Shown one piece after another: positions 44,033 to 64,000 of a stretch of 64,000 bases of DNA. The stretch is from Ectothiorhodospira shaposhnikovii. GTDB taxonomy: Bacteria; Pseudomonadota; Gammaproteobacteria; Ectothiorhodospirales; Ectothiorhodospiraceae. The notes below the pieces were generated by a model that was not told where the DNA came from, did not search any database, and saw only the letters and a list, made by a program, of their open reading frames with translations. Within the stretch, counting starts at the first letter, position 1. Each line of letters opens with the position of its first letter. The DNA lies in the NCBI RefSeq assembly GCF_022227765.1, contig NZ_JAJMLZ010000008.1, forward strand, positions 62,001-126,000, written 5' to 3'. Position numbers and translations under genes: made by a program.

Positions 44033-44063
44033 TGACACCCATCCAGATCCGGAAATCACGGCC

Positions 44064-44741: not shown

Positions 44742-44823
44742 TTCCATGCGATTTCCCCATGACCCGCCCGGTTGCAGGCAGCGCGCCCGGTAGCGGATAC
44801 TCAATCATCAGAGCGGGAGACCC

Positions 44824-45402: not shown

Positions 45403-45443
45403 CCCGGATGCCGCCATCGACGAGCCAGGAGCCGTAATCGCCC

Positions 45444-46031
45444 ATGCTTGCCGCCGTCCTAGTCATCAGTTCGCTGTCCGCCTTGTTCGGCATGATCCTT
45501 GGCTATTCCGCCATCCGCTTTCGCGTGGAAAGCGATCCGGTGGTGGAGAAGATCGACAACATGCTGCCCCAGACCCAATGCGGGCAATGCGGCTTTGCCG
45601 GCTGCCGTCCCTATGCCGCCGCCATCGCCGAGGGCAAGGCGGACATCAATCTCTGCCCTCCAGGGGGGACCGGCCTGCTCATGGCCCTGGCCGACATGCT
45701 CGGGCGCGACGCCAAGCCCATCGAGGGCAAGGTCAAGGAAAAGGCCCTGGCCCGTATCGACGAAAACAGCTGCATCGGCTGCACCCTGTGCGTGCAGGCC
45801 TGCCCGGTGGACGCCATCGTCGGCGCTGCCAAGCAACTGCATGCCGTCATCGAGACCCAGTGCACCGGCTGCGAGCTGTGTCTGATGCCCTGCCCGGTGG
45901 ACTGCATCCGCATGGTGCCCATTGCCCAGGACCTGAATACCTGGAAATGGCCCTTCCCCATGGACACCGCCGCCGATCGCCTCTGCCTGGTGGATCTGGC
46001 CCGACCGGCATCCGCGGGCTCCGGCGCCTGA
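45444..46031 (+). CDS. rnfB: Rnf complex ferredoxin-type subunit RnfB (cluster 1)
   Basis: This 195-residue protein has an N-terminal membrane helix, a four-cysteine Fe-S domain ([15 protein letters not shown] plus CPP at about residues 49-73), and a two-cluster ferredoxin domain with [15 protein letters not shown] and [15 protein letters not shown]. RnfB passes electrons between ferredoxin and the membrane subunits. It lies 41 bp after rnfA. Confidence 0.95.
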
Positions 46032-46063
46032 GGCGCAAAAGCCCCCGCTGACCACGACAACCC

Positions 46064-47677
46064 ATGACCGCAAGTTCCCATACACTCTGGCGATTCCATG
46101 GCGGCGTCAAGCTGCCTGACCACAAGGCGGAAAGCACCACCGAGCCGGTGGCCGCCGCGCCCCTGCCGCAGCGGCTGATCCTGCCGCTGCGGCAGCACAT
46201 CGGCGAGGCCGCCGTGCCGGTGGTCAAGCGCGGCGAGCACGTCAAGAAGGGACAGCTCATCGCTCGCTCGGATACCTATGTGGGTGCCCACCTGCACGCC
46301 CCCACCTCAGGTCGCATCGCCCTCATCGGCGATCAGCCGGTGCCCCACCCTTCCGGCCTGTCCGCCCCCAGCATCGTCATCGAGGCCGACGGCGAGGATG
46401 ACTGGGGCGATAGCCGGATGCCGCCCATCGAGGACTATCGCAACATCGATCCGGTCAAGCTGCGCAACCGGGTGCGCGATGCCGGCATCGTGGGCCTGGG
46501 GGGGGCTGCCTTCCCTTCGGCGGTGAAGCTCAACCCCCGCCCCCACCAAAAGATCGACACCCTGGTGATCAACGGCGCCGAGTGCGAACCCTACATCACC
46601 TGCGACGACATGCTCATGCGCACCCAGGCGGAGACGGTGATCGCCGGCATGCATCTGGTGCGCCGCGCCCTGAAACCCGAGCGATGCCTGATCGGCATCG
46701 AGGACAACAAGCCCGAGGCCATCCGCGCCATGACCGAGGCCCTGGGCGGCGAGGAACGGGACAACATCCGCATCGTCCCCATTCCCAGCATCTATCCCAC
46801 CGGCGGCGAACGCCAGCTCGTGCGCGTACTCACCGGCCGCGAAGTCCCCAGCGAGGGGCTACCCGCCGACGTCGGCGTGGTCTGCCACAACGTGGGCACC
46901 CTGGCCGCCATCTACCGGGCGGTGGTCCTGGGGGAACCCCTGATTTCCCGCCTGGTGACGGTCACCGGCAGCGGGGTCCACCGCCCCCGCAACCTCCAGG
47001 TCTACCTGGGCACCCCGGTGGCGGACCTGATCGCCCTGGCCGGGGGCTACACCGACGACGTGGAGCGACTGATCATGGGCGGCCCCATGATGGGTTTTGC
47101 CCTGGCCAGCGACGCGGTACCCATCATCAAGGGCGGCAATTGCATCATCGCCGCCCGCGCCGCCGACGTGGAGCGCCCCGGTCCGGTGATGCCCTGCATC
47201 CGCTGTGGAGAATGCGTCAAGGCCTGCCCTGCCGGCCTGCTGCCCCAGCAACTGTATTGGTTCAGCCGTGCCCGTGACTTCGACAAGGCCCAGGAATACA
47301 GCCTGTTCGATTGCATCGAATGCGGCTGCTGCGCCCACGTCTGTCCCAGCAATATTCCGCTGGTGCAGTATTACCGCTTTGCCAAGAACGAGATCTGGTC
47401 CCAGGAACGGGAGCGCCGCCAGGCCGAGGCCGCCAAACAGCGCCACGAACTGCGCCGGGAACGCCTGGAGCGGGAAGAACGGGAAAAGGCCGAGCGCATG
47501 AAGCGCAAGCAGGCCGCCGCCCAGCAGACGGCCCCCACCGCCGACGGGGGGGAAGATCCCAAGCAGGCGGTGATCCGTGCCGCCCTGGCGCGGGCTCAGG
47601 CCCGCAAGGCCGAACAGGCCGCCCAGGACACCACCGCCGCCGCGCCGGCCTCCGAAAACGACAACGAAAACCGCTGA
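46064..47677 (+). CDS. rnfC: Rnf complex NADH-site subunit RnfC (cluster 1)
   Basis: This 537-residue membrane-associated subunit carries the NADH/FMN-binding, Nuo51-like fold (FHGGVKLPDHK at the start, GLGGAAFPSAVKL, INGAECEPYITCDD) and two [4Fe-4S] sites in CIRCGECVKACPAGLLP and CIECGCCAHVCPSNIPLVQYYRF. The C-terminal 85 residues are a charged Glu/Lys/Arg/Ala helix, common in gammaproteobacterial RnfC. Its stop overlaps the rnfD start by one base. Confidence 0.95.
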   Translation: MTASSHTLWRFHGGVKLPDHKAESTTEPVAAAPLPQRLILPLRQHIGEAAVPVVKRGEHVKKGQLIARSDTYVGAHLHAPTSGRIALIGDQPVPHPSGLSAPSIVIEADGEDDWGDSRMPPIEDYRNIDPVKLRNRVRDAGIVGLGGAAFPSAVKLNPRPHQKIDTLVINGAECEPYITCDDMLMRTQAETVIAGMHLVRRALKPERCLIGIEDNKPEAIRAMTEALGGEERDNIRIVPIPSIYPTGGERQLVRVLTGREVPSEGLPADVGVVCHNVGTLAAIYRAVVLGEPLISRLVTVTGSGVHRPRNLQVYLGTPVADLIALAGGYTDDVERLIMGGPMMGFALASDAVPIIKGGNCIIAARAADVERPGPVMPCIRCGECVKACPAGLLPQQLYWFSRARDFDKAQEYSLFDCIECGCCAHVCPSNIPLVQYYRFAKNEIWSQERERRQAEAAKQRHELRRERLEREEREKAERMKRKQAAAQQTAPTADGGEDPKQAVIRAALARAQARKAEQAAQDTTAAAPASENDNENR

Positions 47678-48723
47678 TGCGCTTCAAGACCTTCAGTTCG
47701 CCGCACATGGCGCCCGCCCGCAGTGTCAACCGGGTCATGGGACAGGTACTGCTGGCCCTCATCCCCGGCACCGCGGCCATGACCTGGTATTTCGGCTGGG
47801 GGGTGCTGATCAATGTCTCCCTGGCCGTCACCGTGGCCCTGGCCTGCGAGGCCCTGATGCTGCTGGTGCGTGGTCGCACCCTGACGCCCCACATCACCGA
47901 CCTGAGCGCGGTGCTGGCCGGCTGGCTGTTCGCCCTGGCCGTGCCGCCGCTGACACCCTGGTGGGTCACCCTGGTGGGGGTCGGGTTTGCCATGGTGGTG
48001 GCCAAACATCTCTACGGCGGCCTGGGCTACAACCCCTTCAATCCGGCCATGGTGGGCTATGTGGTGGTGCTCATCTCCTTTCCGCGGGAAATGACCCTGT
48101 GGCTGAGTCCTTCCGTCATCGCCGAACTGAACCTGAGCCTGCCCCAGACCTTTGCCGCCATTTTCGCCGGCACGCTCCCGGACGGGCTGACCTGGGACAT
48201 GATCACCGCCGCCACGCCGCTGGACCGGATCCAGACCGGGGTGGGACTGGCACACCCCATCAGCGAGATCCAGAACTCCCCCTTCTTCGGCTATCTGGGA
48301 GGCGTCGGCTGGGAGTGGATCGGCCTGTGGTTCCTGGTGGGGGGGCTATGGCTGCTCAAGCGCGGCGTGATCGGCTGGCAGATCCCGGTGGCCATGCTGG
48401 GCACCCTCACCTTGCTCTCCGGCCTGTTCTGGCTCATCAATCCGGAGACCTACGCCTCCCCCCTGTTCCACGTCTTCAGCGGTGCCGCCATTCTCGGCGC
48501 CTTTTTCATCGCCACCGACCCGGTTTCCGCCAGCACCACGCCCCGGGGACGCCTGATCTTCGGTGCCGGAGTGGGGGCGCTGGTATTCGTCATCCGCACC
48601 TGGGGGGGGTATGCGGAAGGGGTGGCCTTCGCGGTCCTGCTCATGAACATGATGGTCCCGCTGATCGACCATTACACCCAGCCCCGGGTCTTCGGCAAGA
48701 CCACGGCCGGCAAGGAGGGCTAG
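47677..48723 (+). CDS. rnfD: Rnf complex flavin subunit RnfD (cluster 1)
   Basis: This 348-residue membrane protein is of the RnfD/NqrB family, with LYGGLGYNPFNPAMVGYVVVLISFP, a DMITAATPLD region that carries the covalent FMN threonine, and FIATDPVSASTTPRGRLIFG. It starts within a TGATG overlap with rnfC and is coupled to it. Confidence 0.94.
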   Translation: MRFKTFSSPHMAPARSVNRVMGQVLLALIPGTAAMTWYFGWGVLINVSLAVTVALACEALMLLVRGRTLTPHITDLSAVLAGWLFALAVPPLTPWWVTLVGVGFAMVVAKHLYGGLGYNPFNPAMVGYVVVLISFPREMTLWLSPSVIAELNLSLPQTFAAIFAGTLPDGLTWDMITAATPLDRIQTGVGLAHPISEIQNSPFFGYLGGVGWEWIGLWFLVGGLWLLKRGVIGWQIPVAMLGTLTLLSGLFWLINPETYASPLFHVFSGAAILGAFFIATDPVSASTTPRGRLIFGAGVGALVFVIRTWGGYAEGVAFAVLLMNMMVPLIDHYTQPRVFGKTTAGKEG

Positions 48724-48726
48724 GAC

Positions 48727-49374
48727 GTGCTGCGGGAAATCTATCTCTCCACGGCCCTGCTGGCCGCCTTCGGACTGGTGGGGGCCGGACTGGTGGCCCT
48801 GATCCACATGGGCACGGCGGAGCGCATCGAAGCCAACCGGGAGGCGGCCACCCTGGCCCGCCTGCATGAAATCCTGCCCGACGGTGAATACGACAACGAC
48901 ATCATCAACGACACCACCGTGCTCGGCCATGCCCTGCTCGGCGGCGGCAATCATCTGGTCTACCGGGCGCGCCTGGGAGACGAGCCGGTGGCCGCGGTGT
49001 TCACCGTGATTGCCCGCGGCGGCTATTCCGGTGACATCCACCTGCTGGTGGGCGTGCGCGCGGACGGCCGCGTGGCCGGCGTGCGGGTGGTCAGCCACCG
49101 GGAGACGCCGGGGCTGGGCGACGACATCGAGGCCGGCCGCTCCGACTGGATCCTGGGCTTTGACGACCTGGAACTGGGCAATCCGCCGGTGGAACGCTGG
49201 GCGGTGCAACGGGATGGCGGCATCTTCGACCAGTTCACCGGGGCCACCATCACCCCTCGGGCGGTGGTGCGCGCGGTACGCGACACCCTGATCTACTTCG
49301 ACACCCATCGGGAACAGGTATTCGAGCCGATGCCCGTCGATGACACGGATGAAGAGGCGCACACTGATGAATGA
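48727..49374 (+). CDS. rnfG: Rnf complex FMN-binding subunit RnfG (cluster 1)
   Basis: This 215-residue protein has one N-terminal membrane helix and a periplasmic FMN-binding domain. The flavin is attached through the threonine in FTGATITP (about residue 175), and [18 protein letters not shown] is the family signature. Translation begins at GTG 48727, eight bases after GGAGG. Confidence 0.94.
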
Positions 49375-50053
49375 CACCCCCTACGGCAAGATCGTCGCCG
49401 ACGGCCTCTGGTACAACAACGCCGCTCTGGTGCAGCTGCTGGGCCTGTGCCCCCTGCTGGCCATCTCCGGCACGGTGGTCAATGCCCTCGGGCTGGGCCT
49501 GGCCACCACCCTGACCCTGATCGCCTCCAACGTCAGCGTCTCCTTCATCCGCAACTGGGTGCGGCCGGAAATCCGCATCCCCATCTACGTGCTCATCATC
49601 GCCTCGGTGGTCACCGCCATCGAACTGGCCATGAATGCCTACTTCCATGAACTCTACCTGGTGCTGGGAATCTTCATTCCGCTGATCGTGACCAACTGCG
49701 CCATCATCGGCCGGGCCGAGGCCTTTGCCTCCAAGCACACCATCCCCAAGGCCTTCGTCGACGGGCTGATCATGGGCATCGGCTTCACCCTGGTGCTGGT
49801 GGCCCTGGGGGGCATGCGCGAAGCCATCGGCCAAGGCACCCTGTTCGACCAGGCCCACCTCATGTTCGGCGAGGCGGCCCGGGGACTCACGGTGACCCTG
49901 ATCGAGGATTACCGGGGCTTTCTGCTGGCCATCCTGCCACCGGGGGCCTTCATCGGCCTGGGCCTTTTGCTGGCCGTGAAGAACCTGGTGGATGATCGAT
50001 TGGCAAAACGGGCCGCCCGTCGCGCCGAGGCCCTCGGGGAGGCCCGGGCCTGA
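49367..50053 (+). CDS. rnfE: Rnf complex membrane subunit RnfE (cluster 1)
   Basis: This 228-residue membrane protein is a paralogue of RnfA, with six helices and the motifs [30 protein letters not shown] and [18 protein letters not shown]. It overlaps rnfG by 8 bp and is followed by nth after 16 bp, as in E. coli. Confidence 0.94.
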
Positions 50054-50069
50054 GGCGGACGGCTGAACG

Positions 50070-50717
50070 ATGAACAACGACAAGCGCCGGGAGATCTTCA
50101 CCCGCTGGCGGGCGGCCAACCCCCACCCCACCACGGAACTGAACTACCGCACCCCCTTTGAACTGCTGATCGCCGTGATCCTCTCGGCCCAGGCCACCGA
50201 CAAGGGGGTCAACAAGGCCACGGCCCTGCTGTTTCCCGTGGCCAACACCCCCCAGGCCATCCTCGACCTGGGGCTGGAAGGCCTCAAGAGCCATATCCGC
50301 ACCATCGGCCTTTACAACAGCAAGGCGGAAAACATCATCAGGACCTGCCGGATCCTGGTGGAACAGTGGCAGGGAGAAGTACCCCGTGAGCGGGCCGCCC
50401 TGGAGGCCCTGCCCGGGGTCGGGCGCAAGACCGCCAACGTGGTGCTGAACACCGCCTTCGGCGAGCCTACCATCGCCGTCGACACCCATATCTTCCGTGT
50501 GGCCAACCGGACCGGCATCGCGCCGGGCAAGACGCCGCTGGCGGTGGAAACACGCCTGCTCAAGGTGGTACCCGCGGAATTCAAGCGGGACGCCCATCAC
50601 TGGTTGATCCTGCATGGGCGCTATACTTGTATCGCGCGCATCCCCAAGTGCGGGCAATGCCTGATCGCCGACCTGTGCGATTTCAAGGACAAGACACCCG
50701 CCGCCGCAGGCCGGTGA
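50070..50717 (+). CDS. nth: Endonuclease III
   Basis: This 215-residue DNA glycosylase/lyase removes oxidised pyrimidines. It has the helix-hairpin-helix ALPGVGRKTANVVLN with the catalytic lysine, the catalytic aspartate in VDTHIFRVANRTG, and the Fe-S cluster C-x6-C-x2-C-x5-C (CIARIPKCGQCLIADLC). It is the last gene of the rnf1 operon. Association of nth with rnf is conserved in gammaproteobacteria. Confidence 0.97.
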   Translation: MNNDKRREIFTRWRAANPHPTTELNYRTPFELLIAVILSAQATDKGVNKATALLFPVANTPQAILDLGLEGLKSHIRTIGLYNSKAENIIRTCRILVEQWQGEVPRERAALEALPGVGRKTANVVLNTAFGEPTIAVDTHIFRVANRTGIAPGKTPLAVETRLLKVVPAEFKRDAHHWLILHGRYTCIARIPKCGQCLIADLCDFKDKTPAAAGR

Positions 50718-50957
50718 CGAACCGAAGATTCAAGCGGCAGGATCGATGGGTCAACCGGACATGGTCAGTGTGCATCCGCTGTGACATGCTGACCCACGCA
50801 GCTGAGACACGAGGCATGCAAACAGGATGCGCGGCAACGGATACGCGATGCCCTCGGGCATGAACCAGACTCGCCCGACACAAGATGGATGCCGTTCCCA
50901 GACCGGACCCGACACCAGGCGCTCCGGTCGGTCAACCTGTCAAAGGGAGTCGTCCCG

Positions 50958-53612
50958 ATGACCGAACTGGCCAATCATGCCGAAAAGACCCGCTACCTCT
51001 ATGAGGGACTGCCCGCCACCGTGGCGGTCTCCATCGGTGCGGCCGCCATCCTGGCCCTGATTCATCTGCCGGTGCTACCGGTCCCCATATTGCTGGGCTG
51101 GTTCTGCCTCATCCTGCTGGTTGCCCTGGTCCGGGGCGGACTGTGGCTGGCCTACCAGCGCACCGACACCCCCGAGCGCCCCGTCTGGCTCAGGCGCTTC
51201 AGGGCCACCACCCTGGCCGCCGGCATCGGCTGGGGCATCGGCTGCGCCCTGCTCACCCAGTCCGGCGACTTGAGTTTTCAGGCCTTTCTGGCCTTCGCCA
51301 TCGCCGGCATCACCGCCGGAGCCATCATTTCCCTGGCCACCGACCGGCTGTCCACCCTGTTCCTGGTCGGCCCCATGCTGGTGCCCCTGGCCGTTGCCCT
51401 GCTGATGCAGGATGAACCCCTGTCCGTGATGGCCGGGCTGATTGTCTGCCTCTTTCTGCTATTCGTCTTCGTCAGTGCGACCCGCATCCAGGCCAGTTTC
51501 AACGAGAACATCCACCTGCGGATTCAGGCCGAGGCCCAGCAGACCACCATCCTGGACAATGAACTGCGCTGGCGCTTTGCCCTGGAGGGCAGTCATCAGG
51601 GCCTGTGGGACTGGAATACCGTCACCGGGCAGACCTATCACTCTCCCCGCTGGGCACTGATGCTGGGTCATGCGCCCGAAGAGATATCCCCGTCGTTTGA
51701 TGCCTGGGAGGGGCGCCTGCATCCCGATGACCGGGATCGGGTGATCAAGGATCTCCAACAACACCTGGACGGCCTTACCCCGATGTATGAGTCGGAATAC
51801 CGACTGCGCTGCAAGGACGGCAGTTATCTCTGGGTCCTGGACCAGGGACAGGTGATCAGCCGGGACGCACAGGGCGGACCCACACGGGTGATCGGGGTGA
51901 ACAAAGACATCCATCGCCGCAAGGAGGCGGAAGCGGCGCTGGCTGAGAGTGAACGCTATAACCGCGCCCTGCTCGAAGCCATGCCGGACCTGATGTTCCG
52001 CCTGAGCCATGACGGACGTTATCTGGACTGGCATGCCGGTCAGAAAGGCCTCCTTTACAAATCCCCCGAGACCTTCCTGCACAAGAACGTGTCCGAAGTG
52101 CTGCCCCTGGAGATCGCCGTCCGCGTTCTGGACGCCATTCGGCGGGTCCTGGCGGAGGACCGCATGCATTTCGTGGAATACACGCTGGACGTATCCGGCG
52201 CCCGGCGCACCTTCGAGGCGCGCCTGGTGAAGCTCAATGACCGGGAGGTCATGGCGGTCATCCGGGATGTGACCGAGCAGAAACAGGCCAGTGAGCGCAT
52301 CGCGCAGATGGCCTTCTATGACGCACTGACCCAGCTCCCCAACCGACGCATGCTGCTGGACCGACTCGATAAGGCGGTGGTTTCCAGCAAGCGCAGTGAT
52401 CAGCACGGGGCCCTGCTGTTCATGGATCTGGACCGGTTCAAGGCCCTGAACGATACCTACGGACACAGCACGGGAGACCTGCTGCTGCAACAGGTCGGCG
52501 ATCGCCTCAAGGCCTGCGTCAGGGAAGTGGACACCGTCGCTCGACTGGGCGGAGATGAATTCGTGGTAATGCTGGAAAACCTGGGTTCGCGGGAAGAAGA
52601 GGCCCTGAAGATGGCAAAGGACATCGGCGACAAGATCTTCAAGACCATGAGCAGACCTTATCTGCTCAACACCCTGGAACATGTCATCACGCCCAGCATC
52701 GGCATCAGCCTCTTCAACGGGCATACGGTCAGTATTGATGAGGTACTGCAACAGGCCGACATGGCCATGTATGAGATGAAACGCCAGGGACGCAGCGGCA
52801 CGCGCGTCTTCGAGCCCTCCATGCAGTCATCCCTGGAAACCCGCTCCGCCCTGGCCCATGAACTGCATCAGGCCATGGTCGATCGACAACTGACCCTTCA
52901 TTACCAACCGCAATATGACCTCGATGGCCGTATCCGGGTAACGGAAGCCCTGTTGCGGTGGCAACATCCCCGCCGGGGCCTCATCAAGGCCGCTCAGGTG
53001 ATATCGGTGGCGGAAGAATCGGGGCTGATCCTGTCCATCGGTCAATGGATCATGAAACAGGGCTTCCAGGATCTGAAACGCTGGTCCGAACATCGGGACT
53101 GGTCCAACGTGGTGCTGGCCATCAACCTGAGTCCCAGACAATTCCGTCAGCCAGGGCTGGAAGCCATGATCATGGACATGGTGGATGAAACCGGCGTCGA
53201 TCCCCGACGCATCCGCCTGGAAATCAATGAAGAATGCCTGAACGGGGAAATGGGAGAGGCCATTGCCAGGATGCAGCGACTCAGGGCAAGGGGCCTGCGC
53301 TTTTCGCTGGATGATTTTGGGATCGGGAAACTGTCATTCGGGGATCTGCACCGATTGCCCCTGGACCAGATCAAGGTCCACGAAAGCTTCCTGCACCGGG
53401 CACTGGATCACGAGGATGATGCCTCCCTGATGCGGATGGCTCTGTCCCTGGGCGAGGGGCTTGGTCTGGAAGTGTTGGCCGAAGGCGTGGAAACCCCGGC
53501 GCAGAAGGCCTTTCTGGAGAAGATGGGATACCGTATCTTCCAAGGCTATCTGTTCGGACAGCCCATGAGCTGGGGGGAGCTGATGGGCCTGCCGACCTCC
53601 GAGTCGTCATGA
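50958..53612 (+). CDS. Membrane PAS-PAS-GGDEF-EAL c-di-GMP protein
   Basis: This 884-residue protein has six N-terminal membrane helices (about 15-190), two PAS domains (about 200-335, starting RWRFALEGSHQGLWDWN, and about 340-450), a GGDEF domain with intact LGGDEFVVML (about 455-620) and an EAL domain with VTEALLRWQHP, INLSPRQFRQPG and SLDDFGIGKLSFGDLHRLP. Both catalytic signatures look intact, so it could make or degrade c-di-GMP. The start at 50958 follows AAGGGAG eight bases upstream. Confidence 0.92.
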   Translation: MTELANHAEKTRYLYEGLPATVAVSIGAAAILALIHLPVLPVPILLGWFCLILLVALVRGGLWLAYQRTDTPERPVWLRRFRATTLAAGIGWGIGCALLTQSGDLSFQAFLAFAIAGITAGAIISLATDRLSTLFLVGPMLVPLAVALLMQDEPLSVMAGLIVCLFLLFVFVSATRIQASFNENIHLRIQAEAQQTTILDNELRWRFALEGSHQGLWDWNTVTGQTYHSPRWALMLGHAPEEISPSFDAWEGRLHPDDRDRVIKDLQQHLDGLTPMYESEYRLRCKDGSYLWVLDQGQVISRDAQGGPTRVIGVNKDIHRRKEAEAALAESERYNRALLEAMPDLMFRLSHDGRYLDWHAGQKGLLYKSPETFLHKNVSEVLPLEIAVRVLDAIRRVLAEDRMHFVEYTLDVSGARRTFEARLVKLNDREVMAVIRDVTEQKQASERIAQMAFYDALTQLPNRRMLLDRLDKAVVSSKRSDQHGALLFMDLDRFKALNDTYGHSTGDLLLQQVGDRLKACVREVDTVARLGGDEFVVMLENLGSREEEALKMAKDIGDKIFKTMSRPYLLNTLEHVITPSIGISLFNGHTVSIDEVLQQADMAMYEMKRQGRSGTRVFEPSMQSSLETRSALAHELHQAMVDRQLTLHYQPQYDLDGRIRVTEALLRWQHPRRGLIKAAQVISVAEESGLILSIGQWIMKQGFQDLKRWSEHRDWSNVVLAINLSPRQFRQPGLEAMIMDMVDETGVDPRRIRLEINEECLNGEMGEAIARMQRLRARGLRFSLDDFGIGKLSFGDLHRLPLDQIKVHESFLHRALDHEDDASLMRMALSLGEGLGLEVLAEGVETPAQKAFLEKMGYRIFQGYLFGQPMSWGELMGLPTSESS

Positions 53613-54666: not shown

Positions 54667-57093
54667 ATGAGCCAGCCCCCCCAGTCTCCGGCCGACAAGC
54701 CATCCACCGAACACACCCCGGCAACCCTCCACGCACCCGCCGCCCAGCACTTCGAACAGATGGTGGAACAGGCCTCCGATGCCATCCTGCTGCTGAACGC
54801 CCAGGGTGTCATTCAGTATGCCAACCAGGCGGCGGCCCACCTGTTCGGGTGCCCCCTTGAGCGACTGCGTGGAGAAACCTTCGGTTTCGTGGTGGCCCCC
54901 GACGAACCCACCGAGATCGAGATCGCCCATGCCACCCGGGGCATGCTGTCCGCCGATCTGCGGGCCGTTCCCATGCGCATGGAAGGCTGGGAAGTCTCCG
55001 TGGTCTATCTGCGGGACGTCACGGAACGCAAGGAAAGGCTCCGGGATCAGTTGCGTCTTCAGGAAGCCATCAAGGGCGGGCGCATCGGCCTGTTTGACTG
55101 GGACCTACAGACCGGCGAGGTGTACTACTCGCAGGAATGGAAGACGCAACTGGGCTACGCCCAGGAAGAGATCGGCAGCGATTACGCCTCCTGGTGGACA
55201 TTGCTGCATCCCGATGACCGGGAAGCCACGGAAAAGCAGGTGGCCGAGTACCTGAAATGCGCCGATGGACGACGCTATGTCATGGAGTTTCGCATGCGCC
55301 ACAAGGACGGTTCCTACCGCTGGATTCTGGCCCAGGGCTCGCTGATCCATGGGCCGGACGGTCGACCGTCACACATGGTGGGCTCACACCTGGACATCAC
55401 CGAACGCCGCCGCACCGAAGGGCATCTGCAACGCCTGGCCTTTGCCGTGGATCAGAGTCCGAGCATCGTCGTCATCACCGACCCGGACGGCGCCATCCAG
55501 TACGTCAACCGGCGTTTCTGCGAGGTCACGGGGTTCGCCCCGGAGGAAATGCTGGGCGTCAACGCCCGCGCCCTGGCCCAGACGCCCATTGAGGAAGTGA
55601 TCCAGCAGAACCTCGCGTTCACCCTGCGACAAGGGCATACCTGGGAAGGTGAATTCCGCAACCGCAAGAAATCGGGGGAAACCTACTGGGAACAGGCCCG
55701 CATCTACCCGGTGCGCGACGAGGACGGCACCATCGTCCAGTACATCAAGCTCGCGGAAGACATCACCGACCGCAAGCAGCTCACGGATCGACTGGACTTC
55801 CTGGCCTTCCATGACACGCTCACCGGGCTGCCCAACCGAAGTCTCATGATGGATCGCCTGGGCCAGGCCCTGGTTCAGGCCCGCCGGGACAGGACCCTGC
55901 TCGCCGTCGCCTTTCTGGACCTGGACGATTTCAAGACCGTCAACGACTCCCTCGGCCACGGACAGGGAGACCAGTTACTGCGCATGGTGGCCGAGCGTCT
56001 GAAGGGGCTGCTGCGCGAAGGCGATACGGTGGCGCGCTTTGGCGGTGACGAATTCATCCTGATGCTGACCCAACTCCACGCCCCCCGGGATGTGATACCC
56101 GTGGTGGAAAAGCTGCAGATGGCCTTTACCCAGCCCATTACGTTGGGTCAGATCCCGCTGGTCACCGGCTTCAGCATCGGCCTGGCCATGTACCCCACCG
56201 ACAGCCATCGTGCCGAAGACCTGATCCGACACGCGGATATCGCCCTGTCACGGGCCAAGGCACAGGGACCGCGCAGCTATCACTTCTATACCCGCGACCT
56301 GGACGAACAACTCCATGAGCGCATGCAACTGGAACAGGCCATGCGACGGGGTCTGGAACGGGGGCAATTCCTGCTTCACTATCAACCCCGCATGGACATG
56401 CGGGACAACCGCATGCTCAGCATGGAAGCCCTGATCCGCTGGCAACATCCGGACTGGGGGATGGTGATGCCCGGCAGGTTCATTCCCCTGGCGGAAGAGA
56501 CCGGACTGATCATTGAATTGGGGTCCGAGGTGCTCAGACAGGCCTGCCTGCAGCTCAAGTCCTGGCAGTCCAGTGGCCGCCCCCTGTTGCCCCTGGCCAT
56601 CAACCTGTCTCCCAGGGAGTTCCATCAAACGGATCTGCTGGAACGGATCATGGGGATCATGGAGGAGTATGAGGTGGACACCCGGCTGATCGAATTCGAG
56701 ATCACCGAAAGCGCCGCCATGAGTTCGGTGGAACAGACCATCGACATCCTGTCCCAGTTGACCCGCATGGGCTTTCGCATCTCCATCGACGACTTCGGCA
56801 CCGCCTATTCCTCCCTGAACTATCTCAAGCGCCTGCCGGTACAGAGCCTGAAGATCGATCAGTCCTTCGTCAAGGATCTGGCGAACGATCCCGCCGCCCA
56901 TCCGGAAGATGCCGCCATCATCCGGGCCATCATCGGCCTGGCCGGAAACCTGGGACTTGAGGTCATTGCCGAGGGGGTGGAGACCACCGCCCAGCGGGAC
57001 TTCCTGCTGAAACACGGCTGTCCGGTGGGGCAGGGTTACCTGTTCAGTCGCCCGGTGGCGGCGGCCGAGATCGAGACCCAGTTTACCGCCTGA
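54667..57093 (+). CDS. Cytoplasmic PAS-GGDEF-EAL c-di-GMP protein
   Basis: This 808-residue protein has no membrane helix. Three PAS-type domains (about 30-120, 130-255 and 255-370, including LQEAIKGGRIGLFDWDLQTG and VDQSPSIVVITDPDGAIQYVN) precede a GGDEF domain (FGGDEFILML, about 370-540) and an EAL domain (MEALIRWQHP, INLSPREFHQTD, EITESAAMSSVE, SIDDFGTAYSSLNYLKRLP). Catalytic motifs are intact. The start is the first available ATG and has no strong Shine-Dalgarno. It ends 27 bp from the convergent NqrM-like gene. Confidence 0.91.
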   Translation: MSQPPQSPADKPSTEHTPATLHAPAAQHFEQMVEQASDAILLLNAQGVIQYANQAAAHLFGCPLERLRGETFGFVVAPDEPTEIEIAHATRGMLSADLRAVPMRMEGWEVSVVYLRDVTERKERLRDQLRLQEAIKGGRIGLFDWDLQTGEVYYSQEWKTQLGYAQEEIGSDYASWWTLLHPDDREATEKQVAEYLKCADGRRYVMEFRMRHKDGSYRWILAQGSLIHGPDGRPSHMVGSHLDITERRRTEGHLQRLAFAVDQSPSIVVITDPDGAIQYVNRRFCEVTGFAPEEMLGVNARALAQTPIEEVIQQNLAFTLRQGHTWEGEFRNRKKSGETYWEQARIYPVRDEDGTIVQYIKLAEDITDRKQLTDRLDFLAFHDTLTGLPNRSLMMDRLGQALVQARRDRTLLAVAFLDLDDFKTVNDSLGHGQGDQLLRMVAERLKGLLREGDTVARFGGDEFILMLTQLHAPRDVIPVVEKLQMAFTQPITLGQIPLVTGFSIGLAMYPTDSHRAEDLIRHADIALSRAKAQGPRSYHFYTRDLDEQLHERMQLEQAMRRGLERGQFLLHYQPRMDMRDNRMLSMEALIRWQHPDWGMVMPGRFIPLAEETGLIIELGSEVLRQACLQLKSWQSSGRPLLPLAINLSPREFHQTDLLERIMGIMEEYEVDTRLIEFEITESAAMSSVEQTIDILSQLTRMGFRISIDDFGTAYSSLNYLKRLPVQSLKIDQSFVKDLANDPAAHPEDAAIIRAIIGLAGNLGLEVIAEGVETTAQRDFLLKHGCPVGQGYLFSRPVAAAEIETQFTA

Positions 57094-57120: not shown

Positions 57121-57318
57121 TCACCGGGTGTCGCGCGCGTCCCGGGCCTTGTCGCAAGGGGAGCCGCAGCCGCACTGTCCCGTGCCGCAACCGCCCCCCT
57201 CCCGAAACGGACCCAGCTCCGGGTGACGCCGGGCCAGGCGGCGGGCCGCCGCCTGTACCAGCACCCAGCCGGTGAACATCAGGAAGATCAGGCCCACCGC
57301 CAGCAGATAGGTCTTCAT
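57121..57318 (-). CDS. Small NqrM-like Cys-rich membrane protein
   Basis: This 65-residue protein has one membrane helix (about 4-24) and a Cys-rich tail with GGCGTGQCGCGSPCDKARDAR. The pattern CGCGSPCDK resembles the C-terminal cysteine motif of NqrM (DUF539), the iron-delivery and assembly factor of Na+-NQR, whose membrane subunits are homologous to RnfA/RnfE. It overlaps rnfA2 by ATGA, so the two are translationally coupled, and it occupies the place where rnfB would be expected in a C-D-G-E-A-B order. The protein lacks the FxCxxC clusters of RnfB. The NqrM link is a pattern match, not a confirmed homology. Confidence 0.7.
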   Translation of the reverse strand: MKTYLLAVGLIFLMFTGWVLVQAAARRLARRHPELGPFREGGGCGTGQCGCGSPCDKARDARDTR

Positions 57319-57905
57319 GCGGTGCCGCCGCCCAGCCCCGCAAAGCCCATGAAGGCCAGGGACAGGATACCCGCCAGCATCAGGCTCATGGCCGCGCCCC
57401 GGGCGATGGCCGGCACATCCGCCAGTTCCAGCTTCTCCCGCAGCCCCGCCATCAGCACGATGGCGATGATGAAGCCCGCGCCGGCTCCCAGGCTGTACAC
57501 CAGGGACTGGCTGAAACTGTACTCGTAGTTGGTCTGGAACAGGGCCACACCCAGGATGGCGCAGTTGGTGGTGATCAGGGGCAGGAAGATCCCCAACGCC
57601 CGGTACAGGGGCGGACTGAACTTCTTGATGGTCATCTCCACCAACTGCACCGCCGAGGCGATCACCGCGATATAGGCGATCAGGCGCAAAAACTCCAGGT
57701 TGAAGTGCAGCAGGAATTCATTGATCAACCAGGCCGACACCGAGCTGATCAGCATCACGAAAGCCGTGGCCAGCCCCATGGAAAAGGCCGTGCTGATCTT
57801 GCCGGATACCCCCAGCAAGGGGCAGATCCCCAGAAACAGGGCCAGCACGAAGTTGTTGATGATGGCCGCATTCAGAAAGATGTAGGTCAGTGAATCAGCG
57901 TGCAT
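57315..57905 (-). CDS. Rnf complex membrane subunit RnfA (cluster 2)
   Basis: This 196-residue protein has six membrane helices, with NAAIINNFVLALFLGICPLLGVSGK and [22 protein letters not shown]. The start at 57905 (MHADSLT) overlaps the end of rnfE2 by 11 bp; a longer frame upstream is only read-through of rnfE2. It is the penultimate gene of the second Rnf cluster, and it differs clearly from RnfA of cluster 1. Confidence 0.93.
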   Translation of the reverse strand: MHADSLTYIFLNAAIINNFVLALFLGICPLLGVSGKISTAFSMGLATAFVMLISSVSAWLINEFLLHFNLEFLRLIAYIAVIASAVQLVEMTIKKFSPPLYRALGIFLPLITTNCAILGVALFQTNYEYSFSQSLVYSLGAGAGFIIAIVLMAGLREKLELADVPAIARGAAMSLMLAGILSLAFMGFAGLGGGTA

Positions 57906-58554
57906 GGACACCCGCCTCCCCGGCGCCGGCCGTCTTCTGTTTGAGCTGCCGTTCCTTGACCCAGGCGAACAGGAGCAACCAGGCCCCCAGGACAAAGAAG
58001 CCACCCGGCGGCAGCAGCATGATGACCCAGGGCTCGAAGCCTTCGCCGAACACCGGGATGCCCAGCAGGGTACCGGCTCCGAGCAGTTCACGCACCGACC
58101 CCAGACACAACAGGGCAATGGTGAAGCCGACCCCCATGCCCAGGGAATTCACCAGGGTGGTGCTCACCCGGTTGCGGGAGGCAAACGCCTCGGCCCGGCC
58201 CAGGATCATGCAGTTGGCCACGATGAGCTGGATGAAGGCACCCAGCGCCTGATAGATCTCCAGGCTGATGGCATGAATCAGGTAGTCCACCACGGTCACG
58301 AAAGTGGCGATGATCACGATGTAGGAGGCAATGCGCACCTCCTTGGGGATGTGCCGCCGCAGCAGCGCCACCAGAGCGGTGGAGCACAACAGCACGAAGG
58401 TGGTGGCCAACCCCATGGCCAGGGCATTGACCACGGAGTTGGTCACCGCCAGCACCGGACACATGCCCAGCAGCATGACGAACACCGGATTCTCCCGCCA
58501 TAGACCGATCAGGAAGGTATCCAGACTGATGGGTTTTTCGGTATTGGCCGCCAT
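57895..58554 (-). CDS. Rnf complex membrane subunit RnfE (cluster 2)
   Basis: This 219-residue RnfE/NqrD-family membrane protein has ENPVFVMLLGMCPVLAVTNSVVNALAMGL and [20 protein letters not shown] (cluster-1 equivalent PLIVTNC). It follows rnfG2 with a 2-bp gap and overlaps rnfA2. Together these give the Clostridium-like order C-D-G-E-A. Confidence 0.93.
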   Translation of the reverse strand: MAANTEKPISLDTFLIGLWRENPVFVMLLGMCPVLAVTNSVVNALAMGLATTFVLLCSTALVALLRRHIPKEVRIASYIVIIATFVTVVDYLIHAISLEIYQALGAFIQLIVANCMILGRAEAFASRNRVSTTLVNSLGMGVGFTIALLCLGSVRELLGAGTLLGIPVFGEGFEPWVIMLLPPGGFFVLGAWLLLFAWVKERQLKQKTAGAGEAGVHAR

Positions 58555-58556
58555 GT

Positions 58557-59249
58557 TCAGGCGCCTCCTTCAAGCAGGGTCCAGTACGGCGCCAGTTGTG
58601 GCAGTACCGTACCGGCACTGTCATTCAGCATGCGTCCGATGGCATTGGCGGAAATGGTGGCCCCAGTGATGCCGTCGATCTGCCAGGGATGTTCCTTGTC
58701 ACCCTGCTTCACCGTAACGATGGCATTGGCCAGGCCGGTACCAGCCGGGTTGAGGCGAGCATCCAGACGCTCGAAGTTGGCCACGAACCGGGCATCGGTC
58801 TCGATCTTGTCGCCCAGGCCGGGGGTTTCCCGGGTTTCCAGCACGGTCATGCCGACAATGCACTGACAGGAGGGGTCATAGCCGTAGAGGACGCGGATCA
58901 CATCCGCATAGCCGCGGGCAGAGGCCTGCAGTGCAATGCCCCGCAGGTTCCCCTCGGCATCGTAGGCGGCAAACACCCGCTGTCCCGGGGCTGGTGCCTC
59001 CGCCGCCGGGAACAGACCCTGGGCGGTGAGCACGAAGTCCTGGCGGGTCACCGCGCCGGGCACCACCCGGAAGACCGCGGCCTCCAGGGCACGACGCTGG
59101 TTTTCCGCAATATAGGGCTTGGTGAACTCGAACACGCTCACCACCAGCAACCCCGAGAACAAGGCGATCAGACCCAGGGTGGCCACCAGCTTGAAGCTGG
59201 AGGTGGGTGCCGGGCGTTCCGCGGCAGTGGTCTGGGGAGTCGTGCTCAT
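58557..59249 (-). CDS. Rnf complex FMN-binding subunit RnfG (cluster 2)
   Basis: This 230-residue protein has one membrane helix (about residues 20-45) and a periplasmic FMN-binding domain. The family signature is [17 protein letters not shown] and the flavinylation motif ITGATISANAIG, with FMN on the second threonine. It starts four bases before the rnfD2 stop. Confidence 0.93.
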   Translation of the reverse strand: MSTTPQTTAAERPAPTSSFKLVATLGLIALFSGLLVVSVFEFTKPYIAENQRRALEAAVFRVVPGAVTRQDFVLTAQGLFPAAEAPAPGQRVFAAYDAEGNLRGIALQASARGYADVIRVLYGYDPSCQCIVGMTVLETRETPGLGDKIETDARFVANFERLDARLNPAGTGLANAIVTVKQGDKEHPWQIDGITGATISANAIGRMLNDSAGTVLPQLAPYWTLLEGGA

Positions 59250-60268
59250 GCCGCGTCCCTCCGCTTGCGAGTACCGTAGGGCCTGGGCTGGGTGATGCGC
59301 TCGATCAACGGCGCCATGGCGTTACCCAGCAGGATGGCGTACATGATCCCCTCCGGCAGACCACCGAAGAAGCGGATGATCACCGCCAGGAAGCCGATCA
59401 GGATGCCGTAGATCCAGATACCGGAACGGGTGATGGGCGAGGCGATCATGTCACTGGCCATGAACATGGCCCCCAGCATCAGGCCGCCGGACAGCAGCAC
59501 GAACCAGGGTGTGGGGTAAAACGTGGGATCCATCCAGTAGAACACCGAGGCGGTGACGAAGGCGCTGCCCAGCACCGCTGCCGGGATGCGCCAGTTCATC
59601 ATGCCCCGGGCGATCAGATAGAGGCCGCAGAGCAGGATGAGGATGGCGGAAGTCTCGCCCACGGAGCCCGGCGTCATGCCGGTGAACAAGGACCATGTCT
59701 CCACATGGACACCTTCGAACTTCCACTGGGCCAGCGGCGTAGCCGTGGTCCAGGCATCCACCGGCGCCGGCGTGGTGAAGGGCATGGCCAGGGTGGATGG
59801 CAGGAATTCGGTGAACCGATCCGGATGACCCGGCACCGTCCAGGTGGAGACGGAGACCGGAAAGGCGGCCTGGGCAAACGCCCGCCCCACCAGGGCCGGG
59901 TTGAACAGGTTGTAGCCCATGCCGCCGAACATCACCTTGGCCAGGGCGATGCCGATGAAACCGGACAGGGCCGCCATCCACAGGGGGAAGGATGGCGGCA
60001 GGGTCAGGGCCAGCAACAAACCGGTGATGACGGCGCTGAAATCGGACACGCTGCTGCGCTTGCCGGAGAGCTTGGCGAACAAGTGCTCGGTCAGCACGCA
60101 GGTCACCACGGTGGTGATGATCAGTGCCAGGGCACTGATGCCGAAGTGATAGACCGAGAAGGCGCAGATGGGCAAAAGGGCGTAGGTCACGTGGCGCATG
60201 ATCTGCTCCACGCTGCCCGCCTGCTTCAAGTGCGGCGAGGTCTTGAGTTCGATTTTCAGCGGGGTCAC
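59246..60268 (-). CDS. Rnf complex flavin subunit RnfD (cluster 2)
   Basis: This 340-residue RnfD/NqrB-type membrane protein has FGGMGYNLFNPALVGRAFAQAAFP, TTATPLAQWKFEGV (covalent FMN site) and MASDMIASPITRSGIWIYG. Translation is assigned to a GTG at 60268 whose last two bases overlap the rnfC2 stop (GTGA), because the earlier in-frame ATG would read through rnfC2. Confidence 0.92.
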   Translation of the reverse strand: MTPLKIELKTSPHLKQAGSVEQIMRHVTYALLPICAFSVYHFGISALALIITTVVTCVLTEHLFAKLSGKRSSVSDFSAVITGLLLALTLPPSFPLWMAALSGFIGIALAKVMFGGMGYNLFNPALVGRAFAQAAFPVSVSTWTVPGHPDRFTEFLPSTLAMPFTTPAPVDAWTTATPLAQWKFEGVHVETWSLFTGMTPGSVGETSAILILLCGLYLIARGMMNWRIPAAVLGSAFVTASVFYWMDPTFYPTPWFVLLSGGLMLGAMFMASDMIASPITRSGIWIYGILIGFLAVIIRFFGGLPEGIMYAILLGNAMAPLIERITQPRPYGTRKRRDAA

Positions 60269-61602
60269 TTGAGGCGCTCCCGGTTCAGGGACTTGGCGAT
60301 GCGAAAGTACTGCACCAGGGGGATGTTGGAAGGACAGACATAGCTGCAGCAACCACACTCGAAGCAGTCATTGAGATGGTAGCGCTCCTCCATCACCTCG
60401 TACCGGCGAACCGCGGCCAGCTTGCCCAGATCGGAGGGGTTCAGGCCCACGGGACAGGCCTCCACGCAACGGCCGCAGCGGATGCAGGGCTGGATGCGAA
60501 TGTCCTCGTCCTCCGGGTCGGGCAACACCACCACGCCGGACACCCCCTTGGTGATGGGCACGTCCAGGGACGAGACGGTATTACCCATCATGGGTCCGCC
60601 CAGGATGATGTGGCTGGCGTCATTGCCCGTGAACCCCACGTGCTGGAGCAGATAGCGCAGCGGAGTCCCGATGGGCACCCGGTAATTCCCCGGACGGGTA
60701 ATGCCGGGACCGGCCACGGTCACCACCCGCTCCACCAGGCCCTCGCCCCGGGGCAACAGCGTCCCCAATTGGGCCATGGTGCCCACATTGTTGACCACCA
60801 CACCGATGTGATACGGGAAATGCCCGGAAGGGACTTCCCGCTTGAGCAGGGCCTTGATGAGCATCTTCTCCGAGCCCTGGGGGTATTTGCTCCGAACCTT
60901 GTCCACGGCGATGGGGCCTTCCTTGTCCAGCCGGGCCTGGAGGGCCGCGATGGCATCGGGTTTGTCATCCTCCACACCGATGACGGCGCGGGTGGCACCC
61001 AAAGCCTTCATGGCGATGCGAATACCGGCGATGACGGCATCGGTCTGCTCCAGCATGATGCGGTGATCGGCGCTGAGATAAGGCTCGCACTCGCACCCGT
61101 TGACCACCAGGGTATCGATATCGTACCCATCCGGCACCGACAGTTTCATGTGAGTCGGGAAGGCCGCCCCACCCTGCCCCACCAGGCCGATCTCCTGGAT
61201 GGCCTGGATCAGCTGTGGGCGATTGAGCCGTTCCAGATCCCGGGGCCGGGCCCAGTGGATGGCCTGGCTGTCGCCGGGCGCGGTACGGATCAGGATGGAT
61301 TCGGTCTTGGGTCCCCGGGATGTGGCCATGAGTTCGATCCCCTCCACCACCCCGGTCACCGGGGCATGCAGGGGCACGGACTCGAAACCATCCGCCTCGG
61401 CAATGGGCTGTCCCCGCAGCACTTCCTGATGCTTGACCACCAGGGGCCGGGCAGGCCGGCCGAAATGCTGCTGCAGGGGCACCACCATGCGGGGCGCAAA
61501 GGGCAACCGACGAATGGGCTTGTCACGGGTGTCTTCCTTCAGCCCGGGGGGATGAACCCCCCGGGGGAAGGTGAGCCCCGTCAGAAATGACAGGAGGCCC
61601 AT
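60265..61602 (-). CDS. Rnf complex NADH-site subunit RnfC (cluster 2)
   Basis: This 445-residue RnfC has GLVGQGGAAFPTHMKLSV, VNGCECEPYLSADHR, and two [4Fe-4S] sites CIRCGRCVEACPVGLNP and CFECGCCSYVCPSNIPLVQYFRIAK. It ends immediately afterwards, without the charged C-terminal extension of RnfC1. It begins 2 bp after the stop of the upstream oxidoreductase gene, so the two are one transcript. Confidence 0.94.
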   Translation of the reverse strand: MGLLSFLTGLTFPRGVHPPGLKEDTRDKPIRRLPFAPRMVVPLQQHFGRPARPLVVKHQEVLRGQPIAEADGFESVPLHAPVTGVVEGIELMATSRGPKTESILIRTAPGDSQAIHWARPRDLERLNRPQLIQAIQEIGLVGQGGAAFPTHMKLSVPDGYDIDTLVVNGCECEPYLSADHRIMLEQTDAVIAGIRIAMKALGATRAVIGVEDDKPDAIAALQARLDKEGPIAVDKVRSKYPQGSEKMLIKALLKREVPSGHFPYHIGVVVNNVGTMAQLGTLLPRGEGLVERVVTVAGPGITRPGNYRVPIGTPLRYLLQHVGFTGNDASHIILGGPMMGNTVSSLDVPITKGVSGVVVLPDPEDEDIRIQPCIRCGRCVEACPVGLNPSDLGKLAAVRRYEVMEERYHLNDCFECGCCSYVCPSNIPLVQYFRIAKSLNRERLK

Positions 61603-61604
61603 GG

Positions 61605-64000
61605 TCAGTTGAACTTCATGGCCCGCTTCATCAGCTTTTCAGCGTCGGGCTCGTTGGGGTTGAAGGGGGTGCCCGGATGCACCGCCATCACGGTGCACTT
61701 CTCGGCGGCCCGCACGATGTCCTTGTACGGCGCCCCCTGGGGGTTGGTCACCACCGCCTGGCGGTTGTCATCGTAGGCGAACACGCCGGGAGCGATCTGC
61801 ACGCACTCGTCACAGGCGGTGCATTCGGTAGTCTCCACCCAGACCGGCTCGTATTCCAGTCCATTGCCCTGGGCGGCATGACCGTTGCCGTTGCTGCCAT
61901 TGACCGGCGCCGCCGACACGGCGGGTGCCGGTGCCTGCAGGGTATCCGCCAGCTTCGCGGCGCCCTCGCCGCTGACCAGGGACAGCAGGGCACTGGAGAG
62001 ACGCTGGGCCATGTCGGCACGGGTCTGGGCCGCCACGGCGTCCACATCCACCACCTCGTGATCCAGTCCCAACAACCCCTTGAGCTGATGCCAGAATTCC
62101 AGTCGTTCCTCGGCAGAACGCACCAGTTCCTCGGACACCAGCACCCGGGTCAGGCGGTTCTTGGCATCCACGGCCCAGACATAGGGGAAGCGACCTTCCC
62201 GCTCGTCCTCGGACAGCTTCAGGAACTCAGCCATGGGGACCATGTCGTCGTTCCAGGTCTCCACCGGCGCCTTGCGGAAGTGCTTGCGGAAGCGACCTTC
62301 GGTCAGGGCGAAGTCGGCAAAGGTCATGGGCAGTTCCATGGTGGCCTCGCCGCCGTCCTCTTCCTGATACTTCAGGGTGTAGGTGGGCCAGTCCTGATCG
62401 ATGGCCGGGTTGCCTTCCAGGGTGCAGCACTCACGGAAGGTCACGCCCTTGTCCGGGTTGTAGCGGAACAACGGATAGGCACGGGACTCCACCGCCAGCT
62501 TGGACTGGGCGAAGGCCACATCGTCACCCACCCCATGCTCCGGCGGACACACGGCATAGACGTTGAACAGGGCCGGACGACGGGCGTTGAGGCCCTCGAT
62601 GAAGCTCTCCAGCAGGTGGGTCACATGGGAGATGGCACCCTGCATCACGTAGCTGGTACGGTGGGCCAGGCCGATCAGGCTGATCTCCTTGCGGATCTCC
62701 TCCTTGCCCTTCCAGGCCTTGCCGTAGGGAGCCATGTCGGACACCTGGCTGATGAAGCCGGAGGTACAGGCCTGGCCGCCGGTGTTGGAGTACACCTGGG
62801 TATCCACCACCAGCACCTTGATGGGCATGCCGGACATCAGGGCGCGGGACAGGTTCTGGAAGCCGATGTCGTACATGGCGCCGTCACCACCGATCCCCAC
62901 CACCGGCGGGCAGAGGTGGAATTCCTCGTCGCTGAACTGCTCCCAGTTGAACTGGGCGAAGAAGGGCTCATGCTCCACCGGGTTGTAGGTACCGGCCAGC
63001 TCCAGCTCCGCCATGCGGATGGCCTTGAAGCCCTCTGCCATCTTGGCCATGTGACCTTCGAAGATGCCCATGGCCATGGACGGGGTGTCCTGGAACAGAT
63101 GGCTGGCCCAGGGGAACGGATACGGGCTGTAGGGGAAGGTGGAACCCCACACGGAGGTGCAGCCGGTGGCGTTGATGACACCCATCTCGGTACGGCCACG
63201 ACCGGAAGGCCCTTCCAGATAACGCCAGCGCAGGTCCTTGAGCTTGGCCAGCACGCCGGTGATCCACTGCAGCCAGTCCGGATCGACGGTGTGGCTGCCG
63301 CCGGCATCCAGGGCGGTGGACAGGCGGGCCAGGGTCAGATCCTTGTCGGCATGCTCGCCGATCACCTGGTTGACGGCCTGGACATTGGACAGATCCATGC
63401 CTTCGGCCAGCTTCAGGCGCACATGCTGTTCCAGCCGGCCGATGAGATCATCCAGCTTCTTGAGCTGAGCCTTGACGCGGGGCTGCATCAGGGCGGTCAC
63501 GGTGGCCGTGAACAGATGCACGGTGGTCTTTTCGCCGCAACCCAGGCAGGCGGAATCGCCGCAGTTCAGGGAACCGTAGGCCTTTTTGTCCAGCAGCAGG
63601 GTTTCCAGGGCGCCGATGCCCTCGTCCAGATCCTCGATGCGGATGTAGTCCGGACGGGTGGTGGGCAGATCCATCCAGAAATCCCAGTTGCGGCGCATGG
63701 TGTCCACGCTTTCCGGGGTCTGGGGGGTCACCACCAGGGCCTGGTCCTCACAGATGCGCACGCATTCCATGCAGCCCTTGCAGGTGTAGGGGTTGAGGGT
63801 CAAGGAGAACAGACCGCCGCTACCCTTGGCACGCTTTTCCATGGCGCTGAAGAAGGGACGGGTGGCGGCGAACTGGAAGTCGCCGATGGACTCCTTGAGC
63901 CAGCCCAGTTCCTTTTCCAGACGGCTCTTGTCATCACCCTGCAGGTCGGTTTCGGCCAGCAGATGGGTGATGGCAAAGTCCAGCTCGGCGCGCACGTCGG
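61605..64000 (-). CDS. Pyruvate:ferredoxin oxidoreductase-like protein, C-terminal part, with fused ferredoxin domain (5' truncated)
   Basis: About 798 residues are visible and the reading frame remains open at the window edge, so the N-terminal part is missing. A ferredoxin-type segment (YTCKGCMECVRICEDQALVV) is followed by a Cys-containing segment (CGDSACLGCGEKTTVH). The thiamine-pyrophosphate domain follows (GDGAMYDIGFQNLSRALMSG and QVYSNTGGQACTSG). The last 85 residues, after an Asn/Gly/Ala-rich linker, form a single-cluster ferredoxin domain (CTACDECVQIAPGVF with a fourth cysteine in EKCTVMAVHPG). The enzyme would decarboxylate a 2-oxoacid, probably pyruvate, and reduce ferredoxin, or run in reverse. 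Immediately upstream of rnfC2, it suggests direct electron supply to Rnf2. Substrate and N-terminal domain order cannot be checked here. Confidence 0.87.
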   Translation of the reverse strand, partial: DVRAELDFAITHLLAETDLQGDDKSRLEKELGWLKESIGDFQFAATRPFFSAMEKRAKGSGGLFSLTLNPYTCKGCMECVRICEDQALVVTPQTPESVDTMRRNWDFWMDLPTTRPDYIRIEDLDEGIGALETLLLDKKAYGSLNCGDSACLGCGEKTTVHLFTATVTALMQPRVKAQLKKLDDLIGRLEQHVRLKLAEGMDLSNVQAVNQVIGEHADKDLTLARLSTALDAGGSHTVDPDWLQWITGVLAKLKDLRWRYLEGPSGRGRTEMGVINATGCTSVWGSTFPYSPYPFPWASHLFQDTPSMAMGIFEGHMAKMAEGFKAIRMAELELAGTYNPVEHEPFFAQFNWEQFSDEEFHLCPPVVGIGGDGAMYDIGFQNLSRALMSGMPIKVLVVDTQVYSNTGGQACTSGFISQVSDMAPYGKAWKGKEEIRKEISLIGLAHRTSYVMQGAISHVTHLLESFIEGLNARRPALFNVYAVCPPEHGVGDDVAFAQSKLAVESRAYPLFRYNPDKGVTFRECCTLEGNPAIDQDWPTYTLKYQEEDGGEATMELPMTFADFALTEGRFRKHFRKAPVETWNDDMVPMAEFLKLSEDEREGRFPYVWAVDAKNRLTRVLVSEELVRSAEERLEFWHQLKGLLGLDHEVVDVDAVAAQTRADMAQRLSSALLSLVSGEGAAKLADTLQAPAPAVSAAPVNGSNGNGHAAQGNGLEYEPVWVETTECTACDECVQIAPGVFAYDDNRQAVVTNPQGAPYKDIVRAAEKCTVMAVHPGTPFNPNEPDAEKLMKRAMKFN

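Follow-up and report, generated by a model that had tools for sequence, protein, structure and literature searches.

The product of rnfA carries ligands of the membrane Fe–S site of Rnf complexes, and to our knowledge it is not known how these complexes acquire this site, which is buried between RnfA and RnfE. For the NQR complex, extracts of two papers report that NqrM (PF04400, DUF539) is needed for NqrD/NqrE and predict that it delivers iron to them (PMC12174285, PMC6209661); in the excerpted text of a 2025 RNF/NQR review NqrM is named for NQR only. The type of Rnf2 operon considered here has already been described and is hence not new: according to an extract of PMC4287430, the genes for pyruvate:ferredoxin oxidoreductase in the Solemya velum symbiont stand within an rnfBCDGEA operon, after rnfB2 and before rnfC2.

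The window, a stretch of 64,000 nucleotides from Ectothiorhodospira shaposhnikovii, contains an Rnf1 set in the usual order rnfABCDGE followed by nth, and most of an Rnf2 operon, the features of which are listed here with the basis of each assignment.

57121–57318, minus strand: small ORF of 65 aa (translation, family alignments, pS/pN, AlphaFold2)
57315–57905, minus strand: rnfA2 (PF02508, E = 1.7e-58; start set by eye from the frame; stop overlapped over 4 nt by the ATG of the small ORF)
57895–58554, minus strand: rnfE2 (PF02508, E = 2.4e-62)
58557–59249, minus strand: rnfG2 (PF04205, E = 3.7e-14; gene order)
59246–60280, minus strand: rnfD2, start provisional (PF03116, E = 1.7e-109; tblastn extent)
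60265–61602, minus strand: rnfC2 (PF01512, PF13375, PF10531)
61605–63995, minus strand: 3' part of a single-chain 2-oxoacid (pyruvate-type):ferredoxin oxidoreductase (full chain of 1655 aa at L133:6606-11573, minus strand)
L133:11705-12622, minus strand, outside the window and beyond the oxidoreductase: rnfB2 (305 aa, PF04060)

In the sense of transcription the operon thus reads rnfB, oxidoreductase, rnfC, rnfD, rnfG, rnfE, rnfA and small ORF. The preliminary description had placed the small gene inside an Rnf operon; it does belong to the Rnf2 operon but is the last gene of it, the downstream gene (54667–57093) being convergent on the plus strand. The further statement that no such gene stands beside Rnf1 was borne out by a scan of 43500–52000 for ORFs with a transmembrane helix and cysteines (TM+Cys ORFs), in which the sole match (49371–49514) was another frame within rnfE1. 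The large open frames between the Rnf1 and Rnf2 sets (50889–53612 and 54667–57093) contain GGDEF- and EAL-like stretches recognised by eye. The notion of an Rnf2 without RnfB, for which the small protein might substitute, was wrong, as rnfB lies upstream of the oxidoreductase and outside the window.

The oxidoreductase comprises POR_N, PFOR_II, POR gamma, Fer4 and TPP domains. Its best NCBIfam match was the pyruvate:ferredoxin oxidoreductase model at a score well below the model cut-off, and pyruvate is its likely but not certain substrate as judged from these domain matches. An extra C-terminal single-cluster domain (Fer4_13) is present, like a fused ferredoxin. From the gene order, Rnf2 would probably reduce the ferredoxin used by the 2-oxoacid synthase that is encoded with it.

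The small ORF was translated from the minus strand, which the preliminary description had left unnamed; its claim that the frame encodes a small protein held. The product has 65 aa and consists of an N-terminal transmembrane helix, a RRHPELGPFREGG linker and a cysteine tail with C44, C49, C51 and C55, the C-terminal end being GGGCGTGQCGCGSPCDKARDARDTR. Substitutions relative to the window ORF were counted over the first 55 codons and amounted to 16.0 synonymous and 0.0 non-synonymous for the E. magna homologue (L005; pS 0.353, pN 0.000), 13.0 and 2.0 for E. lacustris (L003; pS 0.288, pN 0.017) and 16.5 and 3.5 for E. shaposhnikovii (L004; pS 0.357, pN 0.029). The small ORF is a genuine gene under strong purifying selection.

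The AlphaFold2 model consists of a lone helix (residues 2–31) and a tail mostly of pLDDT <50. The mean number of Lys/Arg residues rises from 0.2 ahead of the helix to 3.1 behind it in the small family (0.04 and 2.1 in NqrM), and the protein is predicted to be anchored by one helix, the cysteine tail facing the cytoplasm. In the family alignment a Trp is found at residues 12–24 in 32 of 34 members, W18 being nearly invariant, and C44, the first Cys of the main alignment, is invariant. The number of cysteines after the helix varies from 3 to 7 among the 34 aligned members and is at least three in every one; nine have only three, and the window protein has four. The G046 member (L012:1504-1677, minus strand) ends early, with a CxxCx3C tail.

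A clear homologue (E of 5.5e-7 or better) was present in 11 of 47 genomes of the taxonomic family, including nine of the ten of the genus Ectothiorhodospira. A search of 369 genomes of the class with alignment A1 returned a clear match in 12 (E of 4.5e-6 or better), including the window's own genome and G006, and 27 genomes at E 0.01, those beyond the 12 clear matches being weak; five of 398 genomes of the phylum reached E 0.001, three of them clearly (the window's own and two further gammaproteobacterial genomes) and two weakly. A scan of contigs of genomes yielded nine loci, seven from Ectothiorhodospira, one from a gammaproteobacterial MAG and one from a contig labelled Kiritimatiellae. The last (L040, a MAG contig) carries rnfCDGEA and the small gene, with an RnfA that falls among gammaproteobacterial ones, and is either misbinned or the product of a transfer. 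A plasmid search gave no match to the small protein, and the PHROGs search gave a chance-level match only (E 0.077).

At every locus read, the clear homologues lay downstream of this type of rnfA, mostly overlapping it or within some 60 nt, with a spacing of ∼330 nt in E. marina (L008, L039). For the reverse test rnfA2 was searched in 369 gammaproteobacterial genomes, of which 181 matched at E 1e-50; the top 30 matches (the lowest, G345, at E 2.4e-64) were taken and the region after rnfA was inspected. A TM+Cys ORF followed rnfA in 25 of these 30 best RnfA2-like matches, including L147, a clear member that was missed by the helix filter of the script and was counted by eye, and L150, L153, L154 and L158, which are alike to the family in layout and place only. 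No such ORF was found behind rnfA in the other five (L151, L152, L160, L161 and L169). In the scripted count a TM+Cys ORF was present at 27 of 33 rnfA ends, or 23 of 29 without the four loci preselected for carrying the gene (L170–L173), compared with 27 of 6102 random same-strand positions. Two Rnf2-type operons each occur in G386, G393, G263 and G212. Conservation and linkage together establish the small protein as an accessory specific to Rnf2-type complexes.

Two subgroups of the family were distinguished. Members of group I have GWxxVQ in the helix, followed by RHPEFGPxREEGxGCG and, in most cases, CxC and a final Cys; those of group II have WVxFQxWLkxxDP and C-x2-C-x(2-5)-C, the three cysteines being invariant in 10/10. 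Profile–profile alignment of the two groups, with no shared row (L052, which is the gene of L155, having been removed), gave a probability of 97.7% (E 2.4e-12). At the group II locus whose neighbours were read (L155:299-11691), the cluster also contains a distant 2-oxoacid oxidoreductase, both succinyl-CoA ligase subunits and malate dehydrogenase, and these neighbours point to the reductive TCA cycle; for the Riftia symbiont, rTCA genes are reported to be clustered with Rnf in the excerpted text of PMC11636981. This second Rnf2-type lineage is seen at L162 as well, likewise with a distant 2-oxoacid oxidoreductase, and PEP-synthase-like genes were recognised by eye behind several group I members. 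In the RnfA tree the split between the Rnf2 type and the five RnfA1 sequences is fully supported, and group II forms a clade (96/100). Rows without the gene or with an odd one fall mostly into one five-member subclade (94/95), the others being scattered; with 21 of the 40 inner branches open and a midpoint root, loss and gain of the small gene both fit.

The preliminary description had called the protein NqrM-like and had proposed DUF539 as the profile with which to check this. That check failed: PF04400 matched neither the window protein at E ≤ 10 nor any family member at E ≤ 1 (0/21, then 0/34), and it matched 24/24 true NqrM proteins in the positive control. PF04400 is present in 43 of the 369 genomes of the class and absent from the window's own genome save for a chance match (E 9.86) at another place. 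The genome-scale searches failed in both directions. The family profile found 0/24 NqrM genes; a profile of 24 NqrMs including their helices (A3) matched a single place in the window's genome, the small gene, at E 1.08, and found the gene in two of the 24 genomes that carry it, at chance level (G000, E 1.08; G002, E 0.30), compared with 8.9e-8 or better for the true NqrMs in three of those genomes. Single sequences scored against the NqrM HMM with medians of 0.15 bits for the family, −1.3 for 36 TM+Cys decoys (no clear difference, p 0.09) and −1.4 for 680 shuffles (p 0.04); the window protein reached 8.3 bits, the best decoy 3.3 and the best shuffle 14.3.

Profiles of the main subgroup (A2), the three-Cys subgroup (A4) and the full family (A5) were then compared with A3 using hhalign. 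The probabilities were 92.5% for A2 (81.5% with the profiles swapped, 90.5% without L052), 93.6% for A5 (84.4% swapped) and 69.4% for A4 (34.4% swapped); the parts alone gave 2.4% for the cysteine tails and 62.5% for the helices. Column shuffles of A2 reached the real score in 0/200 cases for the tail (median 29.5 versus 39.4), 1/200 for the helix and 0/200 for both, those of A5 in 0/100 in each of three modes and those of A4 in 10, 7 and 1 of 100 (4/150 in a repeat), figures to be read with the observation that the shuffled profiles themselves still score high against NqrM and that RnfB N-termini beat shuffles too. The resemblance to NqrM thus appears to have an order beyond composition, and the small protein may descend from NqrM, from RnfB or from neither.

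The hhalign alignment pairs C44 with the Cys of the NqrM motif GSCGG, which is present in 24/24 NqrMs and in 1/34 family members (L164, where it looks like chance). Kostyrko et al. are said to have found in 2016 that Cys33 is the essential Cys of V. harveyi NqrM. The tail GGGCGTGQCGCGSPCDKARDARDTR, which had been likened to the cysteine motif of NqrM, is a local feature: its CxCxxPC pattern is confined to the window protein and the three closest species and occurs in just 11 of the 24 true NqrMs. What survives of the NqrM likeness is the layout of helix and cysteine tail, the dedication to Rnf2 and the profile–profile score above shuffles, and the layout together with the constant place behind rnfA would make a better argument for it than the cysteine motif. 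Filing the small protein as an NqrM was rejected because of the outcome with the HMM, the motifs and the genome-scale searches, and NqrM is retained as a working analogy only. NqrA was found in two of the 24 carrier genomes and not in that of the window; because it is absent from 22/24, NQR is not the client of the small protein.

The reading preferred here, at a probability of roughly 0.4, is that the small protein is a factor for assembling or maturing the RnfA2/RnfE2 site, by analogy NqrM-like in action and not classed as an NqrM. Its cysteine tail would hold iron or a nascent Fe–S unit, which might be handed to the four-cysteine [2Fe–2S] site of RnfA2 and RnfE2, as has been proposed for NqrM and NqrD/NqrE. 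On the client side both Fe–S cysteines are present in RnfA at all 33 loci, L159 having been judged by eye and the other 32 by pattern, and in RnfE at 32/33. The exception is RnfE2 of G128 (L159:9337-9981), in which Thr replaces the second Fe–S Cys (VVNTLILGR, compared with VANCMILGR in the window); RnfA2 of this genome retains both cysteines and the small gene is present, which counts against a maturation role. The Fe–S site can form without the small protein, because five Rnf2 operons and the Rnf1 of the same genome do without the gene. The small protein may descend from NqrM or may have reached this design independently. Extended to a family-wide scheme, Rnf complexes that feed 2-oxoacid synthases might have a membrane factor of their own for [2Fe–2S] insertion into RnfA/RnfE, an NqrM counterpart outside NQR, in two lineages (one linked to pyruvate synthase and one to the reductive TCA cycle) with secondary losses; this generalisation is put forward tentatively and is somewhat doubtful.

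The same observations could be accounted for by a small permanent subunit of Rnf2, in which the Trp-bearing helix packs on RnfA or another membrane subunit and serves to stabilise the complex or to dock the oxidoreductase, the cysteines being secondary. This role is considered rather unlikely. In its favour, the helix is more strongly conserved than the tail in both subgroups, with the Trp in 32 of 34 members and W18 near-invariant, and the cysteines vary in number and spacing. A pure stabiliser would not need the cytoplasmic cluster of at least three cysteines found in all 34 members, and a search of solved structures, Rnf complexes included, found nothing related to the window protein, the family profile or NqrM. 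At the other extreme the frame might be open by chance and without function, since DNA of high G+C content yields many open frames here; the substitution pattern (pN of 0.000 against a pS of 0.353 in E. magna) refutes this, and with place and design retained across gammaproteobacteria and such ORFs far commoner behind rnfA than at random positions, its probability is negligible.

Two further roles start from other small cysteine proteins. A general membrane iron-binding protein of the FeoB-associated kind, which would provide local iron for the Fe–S units of the whole operon, RnfB, RnfC and the oxidoreductase included, instead of serving RnfA/RnfE only, shares the layout of a short helix plus a cysteine tail, and the FeoB-associated family PF12669 matched 5/34 members at E ≤ 1 (best E 7.7e-4), compared with none for NqrM. 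These matches are weak and patchy and do not include the window protein; PF12669 and DUF6234, which also matches 5/34 members, are the most-matched Pfam families. A PF12669 search of 143 class genomes gave no match over its cut-off, and hence no profile for a profile–profile comparison. At the loci read, the small gene is linked to rnfA and not to feo, and an iron-binding role of this general kind is considered unlikely. Still less probable, if slightly, is a shortened relative of the RnfB N-terminus (helix plus CGxCGxxGC) at the place that rnfB takes in rnfCDGEAB operons, serving electron transfer or the docking of RnfB. In its favour, the small protein and RnfB both place a CGxC-type motif after a helix. 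When the N-terminal parts of 14 RnfB proteins of the Rnf2 type were taken for comparison, A5 gave 78.1%, A4 41.5% and A2 6.9%, shuffles scoring as high in 0/150 cases for A5 and for A4 and in 10/150 for A2, and RnfG N-termini as a control gave 2.0% or less with the small-family profiles. DP precedes the cysteine motif shortly in seven of ten A4 members, as in RnfB. A2, the main subgroup, does not stand above its shuffles, whereas A4, the subgroup that does resemble RnfB, is without the fourth Cys of the RnfB Fe–S domain (PF04060); PF04060 itself matched 0/34 members and was not among the 19 families matched at E ≤ 1, and the operon already has an rnfB.

No description of the small gene was found in the open-access literature searched, and the new aspect of this locus is that an Rnf complex may have an NqrM-like factor. 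With the gene tied to one Rnf type and without a counterpart at the Rnf1 genes of that cell, a natural paired comparison is available in which Rnf1 serves as an internal control. A maturation factor of this kind would be a further component of the ferredoxin supply for reductive carboxylation in purple sulfur bacteria and symbiotic sulfur bacteria.

In comparison with the systems described so far, the excerpted account of the Solemya velum symbiont (PMC4287430) gives the same gene order for its Rnf2 operon as found here, and the small gene behind rnfA goes unmentioned in that excerpt. The small family differs from NqrM in the RHPEFGPxREEG linker of its main subgroup, where NqrM has a short one, in the three cysteines of its second subgroup and in the location of its gene, which follows rnfA and is mostly found in genomes that lack NQR. 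It resembles NqrM in its size of about 60–90 aa, its single N-terminal helix followed by Lys/Arg residues, the cluster of cysteines in its tail and its being encoded together with the genes of a related complex.
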